A DNA stretch of 44,280 nt, taken from the NCBI GenBank assembly GCA_015061665.1, contig SUWC01000018.1, forward strand, positions 1 to 44,280, written 5' to 3'. Positions 602-37,210 of the stretch are shown here, in pieces (the stretch's first letter is position 1; each line of letters opens with the position of its first letter). Source of the stretch: Lentisphaerota bacterium. GTDB taxonomy: Bacteria; Verrucomicrobiota; Kiritimatiellia; RFP12; UBA1067. Position numbers and translations under genes: made by a program. Below the pieces are notes generated by a model. The model did not search any database. It saw only the letters and a program-made list of their open reading frames with translations, and was not told the DNA's origin.

Positions 602-671
602 TTGCCCAAATTTTGCTTTGCAAGCGTCGCAGATTCCTCCGAGGCGCTAGGAATGGTCGTTTGCCCTACGG

Positions 672-734
672 CCAACGCATCAAAAATTCCTTCTCCCCGC
701 TGACGCGGTGTAGAACGAATTTTTGATGCGTTGG
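672..734. repeat. Subterminal hairpin at the distal end of copy A
   Basis: Perfect 18-bp arms at 672-689 and 717-734 enclose a 27-nt loop containing CCGCTGACGCGG. The same loop core recurs in copy B on arms of different sequence. Confidence 0.85.
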
Positions 735-914
735 AAGTGTTTCAGCAGCCAACAACCAGCGATCAGCGCCCAATCCGGGCGGTCGTGGCGCGCATCTTGG
801 ACTTTCAGGAGGTGTCCAAGTCGCATTCATCGGGCGCGCCCGTCCTTTTTGTGAACGCGCGGGCATCGAGCCCGAGCGGGTTCGATGCAGTCGCCTTGAA
901 GTCTTCTTCCCGCC

Positions 915-977
915 CTATGCCGCCGCCATCAGCTTTAGCAGCTTGTCGTCGTCCCATGCGAGTTCCTTTCGTTTCAC
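915..977 (-). other. Possible 20-codon ORF inside mobile element A
   Basis: A GTG codon at 977, with GGAGG seven bases upstream, opens a frame of 20 residues starting VKRKELAWDDDKLLKL and ending in TAG at 915. The charged WDDDKLxKL pattern resembles the start of small helix-turn-helix proteins, so this may be the remnant of a passenger or transposition gene. It is too short to call a gene with confidence. Confidence 0.25.
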
Positions 978-1141
978 GCTGATTCCTCCGAAGACCGAAG
1001 ACCGCATGCAGGGAAAAGCCATCGGAGCGTAGGCTCGATGCCTACGCACAAAAGATGATCGGGCGCGGCCGATTTGTTGCCCCTAGTATGTCCTAGGGTC
1101 GCACTAGACGCGCCACGACCATTCGGATTGGACACTGCGCT

Positions 1142-1206
1142 GCTCGCCCCGAGCATAGCTCGGGGGTTGCGCCCTATAAACGGGCGCCCCCGCTAGGGGC
1201 GGATAC
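1142..1206. repeat. Three tandem hairpins inserted in copy A
   Basis: These 65 bases replace only 3 bases at the same place in copies B and C. They hold three small palindromes end to end: CCCCGAGC-ATA-GCTCGGGG (1147-1165), GCGCCC/GGGCGC (1169-1187) and GCCCC/GGGGC (1186-1200). Confidence 0.7.
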
Positions 1207-1239
1207 GGCTGCTGGTTGCTGAGGCACTTCCAACGCATT

Positions 1240-1277
1240 AAAAAAAGATCCAGGGGCCCCGAAGGGGAAGGATCGGC
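1240..1277 (-). terminator. Rho-independent terminator carried by element A
   Basis: On the minus strand a GATCC/GGATC stem with an inner GC-rich hairpin (CCCC-TTCG-GGG core) is followed by seven T residues. It lies just beyond the stop codon of the histidine kinase at 1280, so the element supplies this gene's terminator. Confidence 0.75.
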
Positions 1278-1279
1278 TT

Positions 1280-2506
1280 TTAATGCGTTGGCCGTACGTT
1301 TGCCCCGCTTGAGCGGACATCGCCGCTAACTGGCAATGAAATAATGAAGCGGCAGCCGCTTGGATGCGACGCCTCAAGCGCGGCAGAACCACCGTGCATC
1401 TCGGCTATGCGCTTTACAATGGCAAGCCCAAGGCCGCTGCCTCCAGTCCCCTCCCTCGAAGAATCAACCCTGTAGAACCGCTCGAACACGCGCGACGCGT
1501 GCTCGGACGGTATGCCGCGCCCGTGGTCCTCGACGGACACCTCGACGCGCCTTCCCTTCCGCTCGGCCGCAATCCTCACTGTCCGCGAACCGGAATGACG
1601 AAGCGCATTGACGACAAGATTGGAAACCGCACGCTCCAGGAGGCCCCTGTCGCCTTCAACGGACAGCTCGTCGCCGCATTCCCACGAAACCTCGACGCCC
1701 TTCTCGCTCGCCCCCACCTCGAAGCGCTCGGCCGTCTCCTTGACGAGCCCGCGCAAATCGACGCGCTCCACGCCATGCGGGGCGTCGCTGCGCTCCAGCT
1801 TCGCAAGGTCAATAATCCCGCGCGCCAGCGCGTCCAGCCGCTTCGACTCCCCGCGCATCATCGCGACAAGCCGCCGACGGACATCAGGCGGCGCATCGTC
1901 GTCCAACAAGTCCGCCGCGCCAATGATCCCTGTAAGCGGAGTCTTCAGCTCGTGCGAGAAGTCCGCGATGAACTCGCTTCTGAACTTCTCCAGGCGGGCG
2001 AGTTCGCGGATGCGCACGCGCTGCCGGTACGAGAAGAAGAACACGAGCATCACCCCCGCGCCGCCCGCAAAAGCCGCAAGCGCGAACGAAAGCCTGGCGC
2101 GGCGGAACGGCGCAAGGACGCGCGAGCGCGGAATACCGATCCGAACCGTGTGTCCGCCAAGCGGCGCCGAGGCGTAGATTTCGTCGGGATGCATGCCAGG
2201 CCTGCTGGACGAATCGAAGACCAGGCCGCCCCGCAGGCTGAACACGGTCATCCTGAGACCTTCCTCCTCGCACTTCGAGCCAATGGAATGTATCGCCTGG
2301 AAATCACCCGTGTCCAGCGGCTCCCTGAGCGACGAGGCAACCATTGACGCGCGCTCTTCAAGGTCGCGCTCCGCCCAGCCGACGACTGCACGGCGGAATG
2401 ACGACGCCTCGCGGACGAATACGGCGACAAGAAGCACGAACGCCAGAGCGGAGATCGCTGGTGCGGCAAAGTCGCGGAGAAAGGACGATCTGGCAACGCG
2501 TCTCAT
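1280..2506 (-). CDS. PhoR-type sensor histidine kinase
   Basis: 408 residues. An N-terminal membrane segment (about 13-32) and a second one (about 143-165) flank a small periplasmic sensor region. The H-box FIADFSHELKTPLTG, an N-box (RAVSNLVVNALRHSG) and the G1/G2 motifs (DHGRGIP, GSGLGLAIVKRI) of an active HisKA-HATPase kinase follow. The gene overlaps the 3' end of the response regulator gene by 4 bp, so the pair is translationally coupled. Its C-terminus has been altered by element A: the last codons, VRPTH and TAA, come from the element's terminal repeat. Removing the element and one target copy predicts an original end of GANDHS-TAG. The catalytic core is untouched and the kinase should still work. 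Confidence 0.92.
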   Translation of the reverse strand: MRRVARSSFLRDFAAPAISALAFVLLVAVFVREASSFRRAVVGWAERDLEERASMVASSLREPLDTGDFQAIHSIGSKCEEEGLRMTVFSLRGGLVFDSSSRPGMHPDEIYASAPLGGHTVRIGIPRSRVLAPFRRARLSFALAAFAGGAGVMLVFFFSYRQRVRIRELARLEKFRSEFIADFSHELKTPLTGIIGAADLLDDDAPPDVRRRLVAMMRGESKRLDALARGIIDLAKLERSDAPHGVERVDLRGLVKETAERFEVGASEKGVEVSWECGDELSVEGDRGLLERAVSNLVVNALRHSGSRTVRIAAERKGRRVEVSVEDHGRGIPSEHASRVFERFYRVDSSREGTGGSGLGLAIVKRIAEMHGGSAALEASHPSGCRFIISLPVSGDVRSSGANVRPTH

Positions 2507-33664: not shown

Positions 33665-34744
33665 TCATGCTTGGCTACCACGCTGCGTCGCGGAGCGGAG
33701 CACGGCAGCAAGGAACGGTTTGACGCGGTTTGGCCACGTAGTGCAGAGTTTTGCCGGACTTTCCTTTGGGCTCGAAACGCACAACGCGTCCATTGGCGTG
33801 CCGCCAAACCACAGCCCGCTGTCGACGATCTCGATGTTGCTTTCCGGCGGACAGCGGAACTTCTTCTTGACGCCCAGGCCGCCTATGCCTGCAAACGTCT
33901 CGCCTTCGCCGTATTCGATTGTCATCGTCCGCTTGCCGAAAAGCGAAAAAACCGCCAGGCAAAACAGGACCACGGCCACGAGCGCGCAAATCAGCAGAAC
34001 AGTCAAAGTCAAAGGCATCTTACCGTATAAGGCCGCCGCAAGTCCGGATAATAGCGCAACAAGCGCGACGAGGGGAATCCACGATCGCTTGCGATAGGTA
34101 ACGACTGTCCTCTTTCTGGAATCTCGAGTGGCCGATATGCCTTCGGGCGGTCTTGCGAGAAGAGCGCGGTCTCGACTTGCCACGGACGCCTTTGACGCCG
34201 CCGTGGCAGTGCGTTCTGGAACATCGGTTTTGTCGAAGATGAACGCGACGGCTTCTTTTGTCACTCGCAGGAGGCTGTCAATGCGCTCCTCGTCGTCGGA
34301 CGAGTATATTACCCGCGGCACTTCCTTGTCATAAGGCACGCGCACGATTACGCGGAAAATCGTCACTTGGCTCCTTCCCCTTGAGCGTATGACATAGTCT
34401 TTGTCCACCACTCCGCATGCAGGCAGAGAGAATCCCCTGGTGACGCCGAAGGTCCCGATGCCCACGAAGCGAGAGCCCTCAGACCGCTTGAAAAATATTG
34501 TCGTATGTCCGAACAGCGAAAGGACAAGGCCTCCGACAAGAAAAAGCTCCACTACGGAAGCAGCGCAGAAAATGATTACAGCATGAAATGTGAGCGGCGA
34601 CTTCAGGTTGTCTGCAGCGAGCTTGAGAATAAAGCAGAACACCACAATCGCCGCCAGTGCGGCGAAATATCCGTTGGCGTTCCAGTTCCCGAACGTGACA
34701 CGAACTGTGCGCTCTCCATCTATTGTCTTCTTTTCAACTTCCAT
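33665..34744 (-). CDS. Membrane protein with internally duplicated TM-pair/PH-like unit
   Basis: 359 residues, not recognised. Each half has a pair of hydrophobic helices (about 27-80 and 222-270) followed by a beta-rich segment. The halves align: SLFGHTTIFF, VGIGTFGVTRGFSLP in the first and SLFGKRTMTI, AGIGGLGVKKKFRCP in the second. This resembles membrane-anchored PH-like (DUF304-type) proteins. A stretch of about 40 polar residues joins the halves. It is transcribed away from the GH51 gene out of a shared 108-bp gap. Confidence 0.7.
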   Translation of the reverse strand: MEVEKKTIDGERTVRVTFGNWNANGYFAALAAIVVFCFILKLAADNLKSPLTFHAVIIFCAASVVELFLVGGLVLSLFGHTTIFFKRSEGSRFVGIGTFGVTRGFSLPACGVVDKDYVIRSRGRSQVTIFRVIVRVPYDKEVPRVIYSSDDEERIDSLLRVTKEAVAFIFDKTDVPERTATAASKASVASRDRALLARPPEGISATRDSRKRTVVTYRKRSWIPLVALVALLSGLAAALYGKMPLTLTVLLICALVAVVLFCLAVFSLFGKRTMTIEYGEGETFAGIGGLGVKKKFRCPPESNIEIVDSGLWFGGTPMDALCVSSPKESPAKLCTTWPNRVKPFLAAVLRSATQRGSQA

Positions 34745-34752
34745 TGCGAAAT

Positions 34753-34761
34753 ATTATACCA
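34753..34761 (-). promoter_or_regulatory. Extended -10 for the duplicated membrane protein, leaderless
   Basis: Minus-strand TGG-TATAAT; the hexamer (34753-34758) ends 8 bases before the ATG at 34744. Confidence 0.75.
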
Positions 34762-34837
34762 AAACAGAGACGAGAGAGTGGAGAAGGACGTCGGCGCAAT
34801 GTTACCCAAAAGTGGGATGGAAACGCGGCCGCGTTTT

Positions 34838-34846
34838 TGGTATTCT
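34838..34846 (+). promoter_or_regulatory. Extended -10 for the GH51 gene, leaderless
   Basis: TGG-TATTCT; the hexamer (34841-34846) ends 6 bases before the ATG at 34853. It is divergent from the promoter at 34753. Confidence 0.6.
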
Positions 34847-34852
34847 GTTAGC

Positions 34853-36751
34853 ATGAAAACTATAGCAACATCATTGGCCGCCTGCATGGCCATCTGCGCC
34901 TTCGGGGCGGAGAACATCGTAACCGTGGACCCAGCTACTGTCGTGAGCGAGGCGTCGCCCGACCTCTGGGGCATCTTCTTCGAGGACATCGACCTCTCGC
35001 TGGACGGGGGAGTCTACGCGGAAATGGTCCGCAACCGCTCGTTCGAGGATTTCGAAGGACGCAAGAACGAACTGACGCTTGAATTCTGGAATCCCGTCGG
35101 CAACGCCGAATACTTCCTCTCCGAAAAAAAGAATGCACACGCCAACGACAGGCACTGCGTCACCGTAAGAGGCAAAAGAGGCGCTGGCATAGCCAACGAA
35201 GGCTACTTCGGCATGGGCGTCAGAAAAGGCGCCGAGTACAACTTCACGATGGCCGTAAGGGGCGATTTCGCAACGGCGGAAGTATCGCTTGAGGCCTACG
35301 GAAAGCCGACTATAGCAAAGGCGACCATAGACGGCGTATCCGGCGACGAGTGGAAGACCGTCACCGCAAAGCTCGTGGCGAACGACAGCGACCCCCAGTG
35401 CCGCCTCGTCATACGGCTCGCCCCGGCTCCCATTGGAGGACGCAAGATCCACGAAGCCCAGATCGACCATGTCAGCCTCTTCCCTGCGGACGCCGTTGCT
35501 GGCCTGTTCAGGCGCGACCTCGTCGAAAAGCTCGCCGCGCTCAAGCCGTCCTTCCTCCGCTTCCCCGGCGGATGCTGGGTCGAAGGCGACACTATGAAGG
35601 AGGCTTACCGCTGGAAGAAGACGATAGGCGACATGTGGGAGCGCCGCACGCAGTGGAACATCTGGAAGTACTGGTCGACAAACGGCGTCGGCTTCCACGA
35701 ATACCTACTTCTCTGCGAGGCGCTAGGCGCAAAGCCGCTGTTCTGCATCAACGTCGGCATGTCGCACAAGGAAACTGTCCCTATGGACAAGATGGGCGAG
35801 TTTGTCCAGGATGCGCTTGACTGCATCGAATACGCGAACGGTCCCGTTGACTCGAAGTGGGGCTCGGTCCGCGCGGCCGCAGGACATCCGGAGCCCTTTG
35901 GACTCAAATACCTCGAGATCGGCAACGAAAACGGCGGCAAGGCCTACGAAGAGCGCTACGCGCTTATGGCGAAGGCCGTCCGCGAGAAGCATCCCGAAAT
36001 CCAGCTCGTCTTCGACAACTGGAAGGAGACGAAGCGCGTCGACGACCCGAAGGACCTTCGCGACGACCACTTCTACGACACGCCCGACGCGATGATGGGC
36101 GAACTTGCGCATGAGTACGACTCCGCAAAGGGCGACTTCAGCATCTTCGTCGGAGAGTACGCCGTCGTAGCCGACACCCACCGCTACGGCAGCCTCAGGG
36201 CGGCGATCGGCGAAGCGGCGTTCATGCTCGGACTCGAGCGCAACCAGTCGCAGGTCAAGCTCGCGGCCTACGCGCCGCTTTTCGCCAACGCGCAGCACAC
36301 GGTGTGGACCCCGAACATGATCTATCCGACGACGGACGGATGCTTCGTCAACCCCAGCTGGAACGTCCAAAAGCTCTTCAGCGAAAACAGGGGCAAGGAC
36401 GTCCTTAAGGTTTCCGTGTCGACTGACACTTTCGAGACAAGGACCGGCAAGCCGTGGAACAAGGGCAAGTTCAACCACACGATCGAATGCGTGCAGGCCA
36501 GCGCGATGCGCGCGGCGGACGGCTCGCTCATCCTCAAGCTCGTCAACTGCACGGAAACCCCGCAGGATGTCCAGATCAACGGAATCGCTGGCGAAGCGAC
36601 GCGGACAGTATTCACGGGGCCCAGCCGCGACGCGCACAACTCCCCTGCCGAGCCGGACGCGCTCAAGGAGGAGTCCGCGCCGTTCACCCTCTCGGGACGC
36701 GACACGCTGCCCCCTCTCTCGCTCGTCATATACGTACGGCCAACACATTAA
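34853..36751 (+). CDS. Secreted GH51 alpha-L-arabinofuranosidase
   Basis: 632 residues with a signal peptide (MKTIATSLAACMAICAFGA). It should release arabinofuranosyl units from arabinoxylan, arabinan or related plant glycans. GH51 features are LWGIFFEDIDLSLDGGVYAE near the start, the acid/base Glu in YLEIGNENGG and the nucleophile Glu in IFVGEYAV, with FLRFPGGCWVEG between. A CBM4-like insertion (about 70-190) sits before the barrel. The last codons, VRPTH and TAA, come from repeat element B, so the native C-terminus may have been replaced. Confidence 0.92.
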   Translation: MKTIATSLAACMAICAFGAENIVTVDPATVVSEASPDLWGIFFEDIDLSLDGGVYAEMVRNRSFEDFEGRKNELTLEFWNPVGNAEYFLSEKKNAHANDRHCVTVRGKRGAGIANEGYFGMGVRKGAEYNFTMAVRGDFATAEVSLEAYGKPTIAKATIDGVSGDEWKTVTAKLVANDSDPQCRLVIRLAPAPIGGRKIHEAQIDHVSLFPADAVAGLFRRDLVEKLAALKPSFLRFPGGCWVEGDTMKEAYRWKKTIGDMWERRTQWNIWKYWSTNGVGFHEYLLLCEALGAKPLFCINVGMSHKETVPMDKMGEFVQDALDCIEYANGPVDSKWGSVRAAAGHPEPFGLKYLEIGNENGGKAYEERYALMAKAVREKHPEIQLVFDNWKETKRVDDPKDLRDDHFYDTPDAMMGELAHEYDSAKGDFSIFVGEYAVVADTHRYGSLRAAIGEAAFMLGLERNQSQVKLAAYAPLFANAQHTVWTPNMIYPTTDGCFVNPSWNVQKLFSENRGKDVLKVSVSTDTFETRTGKPWNKGKFNHTIECVQASAMRAADGSLILKLVNCTETPQDVQINGIAGEATRTVFTGPSRDAHNSPAEPDALKEESAPFTLSGRDTLPPLSLVIYVRPTH

Positions 36752-36753
36752 AA

Positions 36754-36791
36754 GCCGATCCTTCCCCTTCGGGGCCCCTGGATCGTTTTTT
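36754..36791 (+). terminator. Rho-independent terminator carried by element B
   Basis: CGATCC/GGATCG stem with an inner CCCC-TTCG-GGGG hairpin and a six-T run, directly after the GH51 stop. Confidence 0.78.
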
Positions 36792-37121
36792 AATGCGTTG
36801 GAAGTGTCTCAGCAACCAGCAGCCAGTAGCGCAGTGTCCAATCCGGATGGTCGTGGCGCGTCTAGTGCGACCCTAGGACATACTAGGGGCAACAAATCGG
36901 CCGCGCCCGATCATCTTTTGTGCGTAGGCATCGAGCCTACGCTCCGATGGCTTTTCCCTGTATGTGGGCTATCGAACCCGCGCGGGGTCGGGGGCCCCGC
37001 GCAACAACAAAACAGTCGGGCGCCTCCGATTGGAACCCCTGAAGGTTCAATCAGGCAAATAAAAGGCGCCACGACCACTCGGATTGGCTGCTGATCGCTG
37101 GCTGCTGGCTGCTGAAACACT

Positions 37122-37186
37122 GCTGACGCAGATAAAATCGATTCAGACCGCGTCAGCGGGCGGAATCGACTTTTTCTGCGTCAGCC
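37122..37186. repeat. Right-hand hairpin of copy B
   Basis: Arms starting GCTGACGCAG and ending CTGCGTCAGC, also pairing ATCGATTC with GAATCGA, enclose a loop with ACCGCGTCAGCGG. The loop matches that of the copy A hairpin while the arms differ. Confidence 0.75.
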
Positions 37187-37210
37187 CTGGGCTAGGCCAG
37201 GGCTGACGCA
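37179..37210. repeat. 13-bp perfect palindrome before nrnA
   Basis: GCGTCAGCCCTGG-GCTAGG-CCAGGGCTGACGC. It shares its outer GCTGACGC with the adjoining hairpin and could switch pairing with it. It ends 20 bases upstream of the nrnA -10. Confidence 0.75.

Follow-up and report, generated by a model that had tools for sequence, protein, structure and literature searches.

A histidine kinase gene of a Lentisphaerota bacterium (assembly GCA_015061665.1) ends inside a short repeat, which raises the question of whether this repeat is a portable gene end, kept for the stop codon and the terminator that it carries, or a mobile element that changes gene ends only as a by-product. The window analysed here is the whole stretch of 44,280 nucleotides of contig SUWC01000018.1. 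The repeat, element A, had been credited in a first-pass annotation with inverted termini of 14 bp that match perfectly and with a target duplication of 9 bp, and both were confirmed when the sequence was read directly. The features concerned are as follows.

658 to 666, no strand assigned: target-site duplication CGTTTGCCC, left copy, 9 of 9 positions identical
667 to 1296, no strand assigned: element A, very probably a non-autonomous deletion derivative of an ISAs1-type insertion sequence
667 to 680, plus strand: 14-bp terminal inverted repeat TACGGCCAACGCAT, left (L) end, read directly
672 to 734, no strand assigned: L-end hairpin with A5 and T5 runs, from self-match and folding
918 to 998, minus strand: ISAs1-family transposase remnant, last 27 codons, 85% identical to the intact copy
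1003 to 1032, plus strand: passenger-gene remnant, last codons RMQGKAIGA*, from by-eye protein comparison
1230 to 1291, no strand assigned: R-end hairpin of intrinsic-terminator shape, with a T7 tail from the kinase side, from scan and folding
1283 to 1296, minus strand: 14-bp terminal inverted repeat, right (R) end, reverse complement of TACGGCCAACGCAT, read directly
1297 to 1305, no strand assigned: target-site duplication CGTTTGCCC, right copy, 9 of 9 positions identical
1280 to 2506, minus strand: histidine kinase, last three codons DHS replaced by VRPTH
34505 to 36751, plus strand: GH51 arabinofuranosidase, VRPTH* end supplied by copy B
36735 to 37189, no strand assigned: copy B, with the R end at 36735 and a CAGGGCTGACGC-type end at 37178-37189

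Element A possesses the features of a MITE, including the absence of coding capacity, terminal inverted repeats, a target duplication and many copies. It is very probably a MITE, that is, a non-autonomous and internally deleted form, of an ISAs1-family insertion sequence (IS) in a genus of the Kiritimatiellae/Lentisphaerae type, with hairpins that were inherited and stop tails that are a by-product.

The changed gene ends can be read from the two genes in the window. When the flanks are joined without element A, the kinase has 406 amino acids and ends in GAN-DHS*, with its stop at 647-649 on the minus strand, while the occupied site gives GAN-VRPTH*; the claimed exchange of DHS for VRPTH is therefore borne out by translation of the joined flanks. 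The ATPase domain of the kinase is essentially complete (residues 285-393, profile positions 1-109 of 111). Among the kinase homologues found, the closest shares about 52% identity, and the C-termini of 19 homologues were compared instead of an empty site. For 18 of them the alignment stops at or before query residue 395 of 408, and for the remaining one, a partial match, it reaches 405, so the replaced tail is not conserved and, as judged from these alignments, nothing beyond this non-conserved end was taken from the kinase. The hairpin core sequence is absent from all 19 kinase homologue loci. As well, the C-terminal Pfam domain of the GH51 protein is matched over its full length (550-739), and the end VIYVRPTH* falls in copy B. 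Copy B had been said to do the same to its gene as element A, which holds for the VRPTH tail; however, a target duplication is not seen at this copy, which carries another kind of terminus, CAGGGCTGACGC, at its far end. Two CAGGGCTGACGC ends stand head to head at 37178-37209 of the window, just outside copy B (GCGTCAGCCCTG...CAGGGCTGACGC), and are perhaps the scar of a second insertion.

New stop codons were thus supplied to both the kinase and the GH51 gene, as had been claimed, and the same annotation had gone further in regarding the element as apparently built to be tolerated at 3' ends, as a portable gene end. Read inward, the L end has a stop in each of the three frames within 60 nt, whereas the R end gives RPTH* in one frame only, within 75 nt, and leaves the other two open for at least 120 nt. 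In the host genome, 20 of the 24 genes whose 3' ends face a copy do not read into it, and the four that do are those at A, B, L068 and L064. Three of these end in RPTH* (A, B and L068), and the gene at L064 runs through the element and is open to the contig end. In relatives, genes at L093, L096 and L178 (G016) also read into the element with other tails, and one at L188 (G016) was called as doing so, its end sequence looking damaged. The stop donation is incidental and depends on the frame, which does not fit an element built to supply stop codons.

In addition to stop codons, a Rho-independent terminator had been claimed within the element, and a predicted terminator-like hairpin was indeed found by a terminator scan at the kinase-facing end of element A, on the minus strand at 1263-1249. 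The scan of 600-1360 gave four sites against a shuffle mean of 0.9, one of the four lying outside the element. Seen from outside, the R hairpin reads GATCC-stem-GGATC, and in most host copies six or seven T come after it; this hairpin, which the scan called in both A and B, has the shape of an intrinsic terminator (a GC-rich hairpin plus a T run). The L hairpin, which has five A before the stem and five T after it, was seen by folding and was not called by the scan. Hairpins with an A run, a stem and a T run recur by folding at the L, R and CAGGG-type ends, and they are predicted from this layout to resemble bidirectional terminators.

The fold of element A as RNA lies far below that of 20 shuffles (z -12.6), which might suggest that a structured or regulatory RNA, rather than a transposon, is the unit of selection. 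Such a fold, however, follows from the nested inverted repeats. Rfam gathering scores are reached by only two tRNAs in the whole window and by no family within the element, and the target duplications and transposase remnants also speak against an RNA as the unit of selection. This reading, which is very improbable, is largely refuted by an insertion sequence with the same arms.

That insertion sequence is carried by a relative, G034, in which a 388-aa transposase (locus L093:3208-4374) is enclosed by the same arms as element A. It matches the ISAs1-family model NF033564 at E 2e-105 (352 bits, cut-off 70), as well as the Pfam families DDE_Tnp_1_assoc and DDE_Tnp_1; the ISAs1-type DDE transposase is therefore found in this autonomous copy, and no intact gene is present in element A. 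The elements at L093 (on the same contig as L208) and L209 are bounded by both termini and by a duplication, of 10 bp and 9 bp respectively, and the one at L210 by both termini without a duplication. Further full-length transposase matches were found in RUG11875 (88%) and in Kiritimatiellae bacterium RGIG2632 from goat omasum (91%), and both are bounded by termini of the element A type. Two passenger genes of L093 (2517-2894 and 2851-3171) lie on the strand opposite to the transposase. One of them encodes a four-helix-bundle protein of the 23S rRNA intervening-sequence (S23) type (TIGR02436, PF05635), and the other, a short protein, has no Pfam or NCBIfam family at E 0.001. A short protein at L210:1132-1461 has the tail SARIQGKVIEA, like that of the latter passenger. 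In the intact element the transposase reads towards the L end and the passengers towards the R end, so that both units point outward; the stop of the transposase gene lies 186 bp inward from the L hairpin, and that of the passenger gene 138 bp inward from the R hairpin.

Element A retains traces of both units. In a second comparison its transposase remnant spanned 918-1004 at 79% identity, and the passenger remnant at 1003-1032, too short for a search hit, corresponds to the gene ending near the R end of the intact element. Since element A shares its termini with transposase-bearing copies, a related transposase may move it in trans. Of the 39 sampled genomes of the genus, 7, the host included, have a transposase match at E 0.001 or better, and among these it is full length only in G034. 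In the host genome, which is 92% complete in 177 contigs broken at repeats, fragments were found and an intact transposase was not, a point against the derivation from such an insertion sequence. The DNA element itself matched at least 10 of 58 genomes, the host included (at most the best 10 candidates per genome were scored); all of them are among the 35 genomes of the host's genus, and none was found among the 23 others in the order. A second ISAs1-type transposase, 43% identical, is present at L107:955 of G034 with a CAGGGCTGACGCA end in the same locus, and it may be related to a third end type, starting CAGGGCTGACGC, that is found in copies B, L046 and L048.

Copies of the element are numerous in the host. 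Exact matches to the 14-bp terminus number 40 and those with one mismatch 16; if up to two mismatches are allowed there are 92, compared with 30 for a reversed control pattern. The 630-bp query gave at least 126 matching pieces (the best 40 of 72 candidates being scored), many of which break off where the contig does, in several cases about 126 bp into the element, which fits an assembler that stops at repeats. The two-ended host copies measure 630, 584, 526, 507, 457, 455, 396, 338 and 338 bp, plus six of 72-73 bp. An exact duplication of 8-10 bp flanks 10 of the 19 two-ended copies (15 from the host and four from relatives), one more has a single mismatch, and 9 of the 19 have no exact duplication. 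At the insertion target, G is weakly favoured at -10 and C at -1.

In the large copies the two end hairpins (L and R) differ from each other and have subterminal repeats and a variable middle between them, while the 72-73-bp copies consist of one hairpin with a terminus on each side. Four of these six small copies have an exact 9-10-bp duplication and one has a duplication with a single mismatch; L044, L071 and L072 are L-like, and the two in L070 and that in L073 are R-like. The relative G023 has a 71-bp copy (L190) without a duplication. In L071 the hairpin is of the L type, and its 3' arm reads TTTTTAATGCG, with an A typical of the R end, which would match the product of a deletion between direct ATGCGTTGG repeats in the inner arm of L and the outer arm of R. 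Remnants of the transposase or of the S23 passenger occur in 9 of 46 sequences (A, B and 44 loci of the host's own genome), namely A, L031, L033, L034, L036, L039, L049, L050 and L060; besides A, transposase pieces are in L031, L034 and L036, and S23 C-terminal pieces in L033, L039, L049, L050 and L060. Near contig ends of G016, L186, L188 and L189 have A-rich, poorly folding sequence after the terminus, with the usual hairpin missing, which may be contig-end assembly errors or decayed copies.

Direct repeats of the ISAs1 family are 8-10 bp long, and the group agrees with the family in its 8-10 bp duplications (9 bp at A, and 10 of 19 copies exact), in the transposase of the intact relative and in the 14-bp terminal repeat. 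One account of the family describes the direct repeat as 10 bp and the terminal repeat as 14-22 bp starting with CAGGG (PMC11946415). Such a start is present at one end of copies B, L046 and L048. Deletion from an ISAs1-type insertion sequence explains the ends of element A, whose terminus fits in length; however, its own termini begin TACGG instead of CAGGG, which counts against this explanation, and the element is therefore better called ISAs1-derived with divergent ends than a canonical member. Within this group, each end is a 62-63-bp hairpin with terminator features, and L093 carries its S23-type and no-family passengers upstream of the transposase in the opposite direction.

The position of the copies relative to genes bears on why they persist. 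Gene calls came from a home-made codon-usage caller rather than a standard program, and the filtered distances and ten tandem sites were entered by hand. Chance terminus matches (L037:175, L151:165 and L178:1386) were dropped from the counts, as were L069 and L074, where element sequence after the terminus is missing or degraded; L035, L038 and L060, whose termini are damaged or absent, and L051, for which no gene was called, were left out. A copy at a contig end contributes a single flank, and one insertion may underlie two such flanks. With these rules the host has 54 usable flanks, of which 24 face a gene 3' end and 30 a 5' end, so that 3'-facing flanks are not over-represented (24/54 against a random intergenic null of 52%, p 0.28). 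The distances do show a bias, since 21 of the 24 3'-facing flanks come within 35 bp of the stop codon, with a median of 13 bp and mostly 0-34 bp, compared with a median of 77 bp for 5'-facing flanks. After distances greater than 400 or not above -50 were dropped (2/24 at 3' and 1/30 at 5' ends), 20 of 22 3' flanks lie within 35 bp against 35% expected (p 9e-8) and 3 of 29 5' flanks against 31% (p 0.008), the 5' distances taken together showing no difference from the null (p 0.49). A first null from gaps of at least 10 bp, inflated by long gaps, was replaced by one from gaps of 20-400 bp, with the same conclusion.

The same proximity is not seen in G016. Its 3'-facing flanks are not over-represented (14/44, null 46%, p 0.07), and only 5 of 14 unfiltered (p 0.26), or 3 of 11 after the filter had dropped 3/14 (null 35%, p 0.8), are within 35 bp; its 5' flanks (0/30 dropped) show a marginal lack of proximity (5/30, p 0.05). 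Proximity to 3' ends is therefore not a general rule. In the other genomes, with 16 termini in 11 loci and not pooled, 5 of 6 3'-facing flanks are within 35 bp. Among tandem sites with both flanks seen, 9 of 10 are nearer to the upstream gene's 3' end (p 0.02, the exception being L045), with the tRNA-Thr at 471-556 taken as the downstream gene of A. In host and G016 pooled, the R end faces a gene 5' end in 39 of 53 flanks and the L end in 19 of 40; the L end faces 3' ends more (21/40 against 14/53, p 0.017), which in the two genomes taken singly gives p 0.10 and 0.08, in a test made after the data were seen. With this bias, the transposase would tend to read against neighbouring genes. Control stretches are 90% coding, yet no flank in the host shows an insertion deep in a gene, a count limited by L064 (where the gene runs through), L051 (no gene call) and L041 (where the called start overlaps the element by 9 bp).

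Two readings of the 3' proximity have to be weighed against the MITE. In the first, the element is kept for its stop codon and terminator and was co-opted by the host at 3' ends, and the close flanks of the host, the three RPTH* tails, the terminator-like hairpins and the L end closed in all frames are in its favour. Most 3'-flank genes stay out of the element, however, the R end stops one frame only, G016 lacks the proximity, 3'-facing flanks are not in excess, and the R hairpin, the more canonical terminator, faces mainly 5' ends, the reverse of what a device for ending the upstream gene would show; we consider this reading unlikely. What stands of the 'portable gene end' is a mobile element with two stops supplied, terminator-like ends and, in the host, 3' proximity, and what lacks support is that it was built as a supplier of stop codons. 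In the second, the transposase would target native terminators or hairpins behind genes, with the proximity a mere target preference, as the tight spacing behind host stops and the weak target bases could suggest. G016 again argues against it, and 60-mers of the empty sites of 11 insertions do not fold better than 105 control windows behind stops (median -15.8 and -15.7 kcal/mol, p 0.63), so that a preference for hairpins is unsupported by this comparison and the reading is doubtful.

For the preferred derivation from an ISAs1-type element, a mechanism can be proposed. Each terminal hairpin would be a bidirectional intrinsic terminator, which ends the element's outward transcripts, keeps host transcripts out and so shields the transposase from host transcription. 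As both gene units stop just inside the hairpins, ending own transcripts and blocking incoming ones is probably their simplest role. For IS1, upstream host transcription was reported to raise transposition and an added terminator to lower it (PMC12428005). Of the parent, element A retains just the arms, namely the L end together with the final codons of the transposase and the R end together with those of the passenger, and such deletion derivatives would inherit the hairpins. The 72-73-bp single-hairpin copies, which have two termini and could still move, may have arisen by further loss of the sequence lying between direct ATGCGTTGG repeats in the hairpin arms. Insertions would survive where they are least harmful, between genes, and host copies facing a 3' end would persist close after the stop, at a distance from promoters. 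A gene would acquire the RPTH* end if the R end happened to land in frame within its last codons, as a by-product and not as a purpose. In one survey, ISAs1 is among the families over-represented between convergent genes (PMC9208149).

Some of these properties have precedents. Like other prokaryotic MITEs, the group is non-autonomous, multicopy, short and intergenic, with terminal repeats and target duplications; it may be distinguished by a graded deletion series down to a 72-73-bp single end that is probably mobile. REP/REPIN-type repeats likewise occur as a single hairpin unit and as an inverted pair, whereas a DDE transposase and 8-10 bp target duplications are found here. According to a MITE review, terminator formation is conceivable (PMC10969869). 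In pneumococci, SPRITE was described as terminator-like and enriched near gene 3' ends, and among 58 annotated genes overlapping BOX, 36 overlap it at their extreme 3' end, with the stop codon in BOX (PMC3049150). Gene-end repeats with a terminator or a stop are thus already known, and BOX and SPRITE are published precedents for the portable gene end; they are likened to element A by description and not by sequence, and differ in their host and in that the parent transposase is identified here. A literature search found no ISAs1-derived MITE with terminator ends, which is not proof of absence.

The element group is spread in the genome of a gut bacterium, often just behind genes, and it is a branch of a known element type whose machinery is not new. 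What it adds to the known cases is that the parent is identified, that the deletions form a graded series and that single-end hairpins carry target duplications, and it presents a decay series of one element from 2.3 kb through 1.4 kb and 0.34-0.63 kb to 72-73 bp. A more far-reaching view, that the ends of this IS group are interchangeable bidirectional terminators, of which a single 72-73-bp end is transposable, so that a very small mobile terminator is scattered over the genome and kept by selection behind genes as their working transcript end, can be held only tentatively and is rather improbable. The group offers a clear example of how host genes may come to end in hairpins whose probable role is to insulate an insertion sequence, and if the 73-bp copies both terminate and transpose, they would be a simple system in which to study how mobile DNA reshapes transcript ends.
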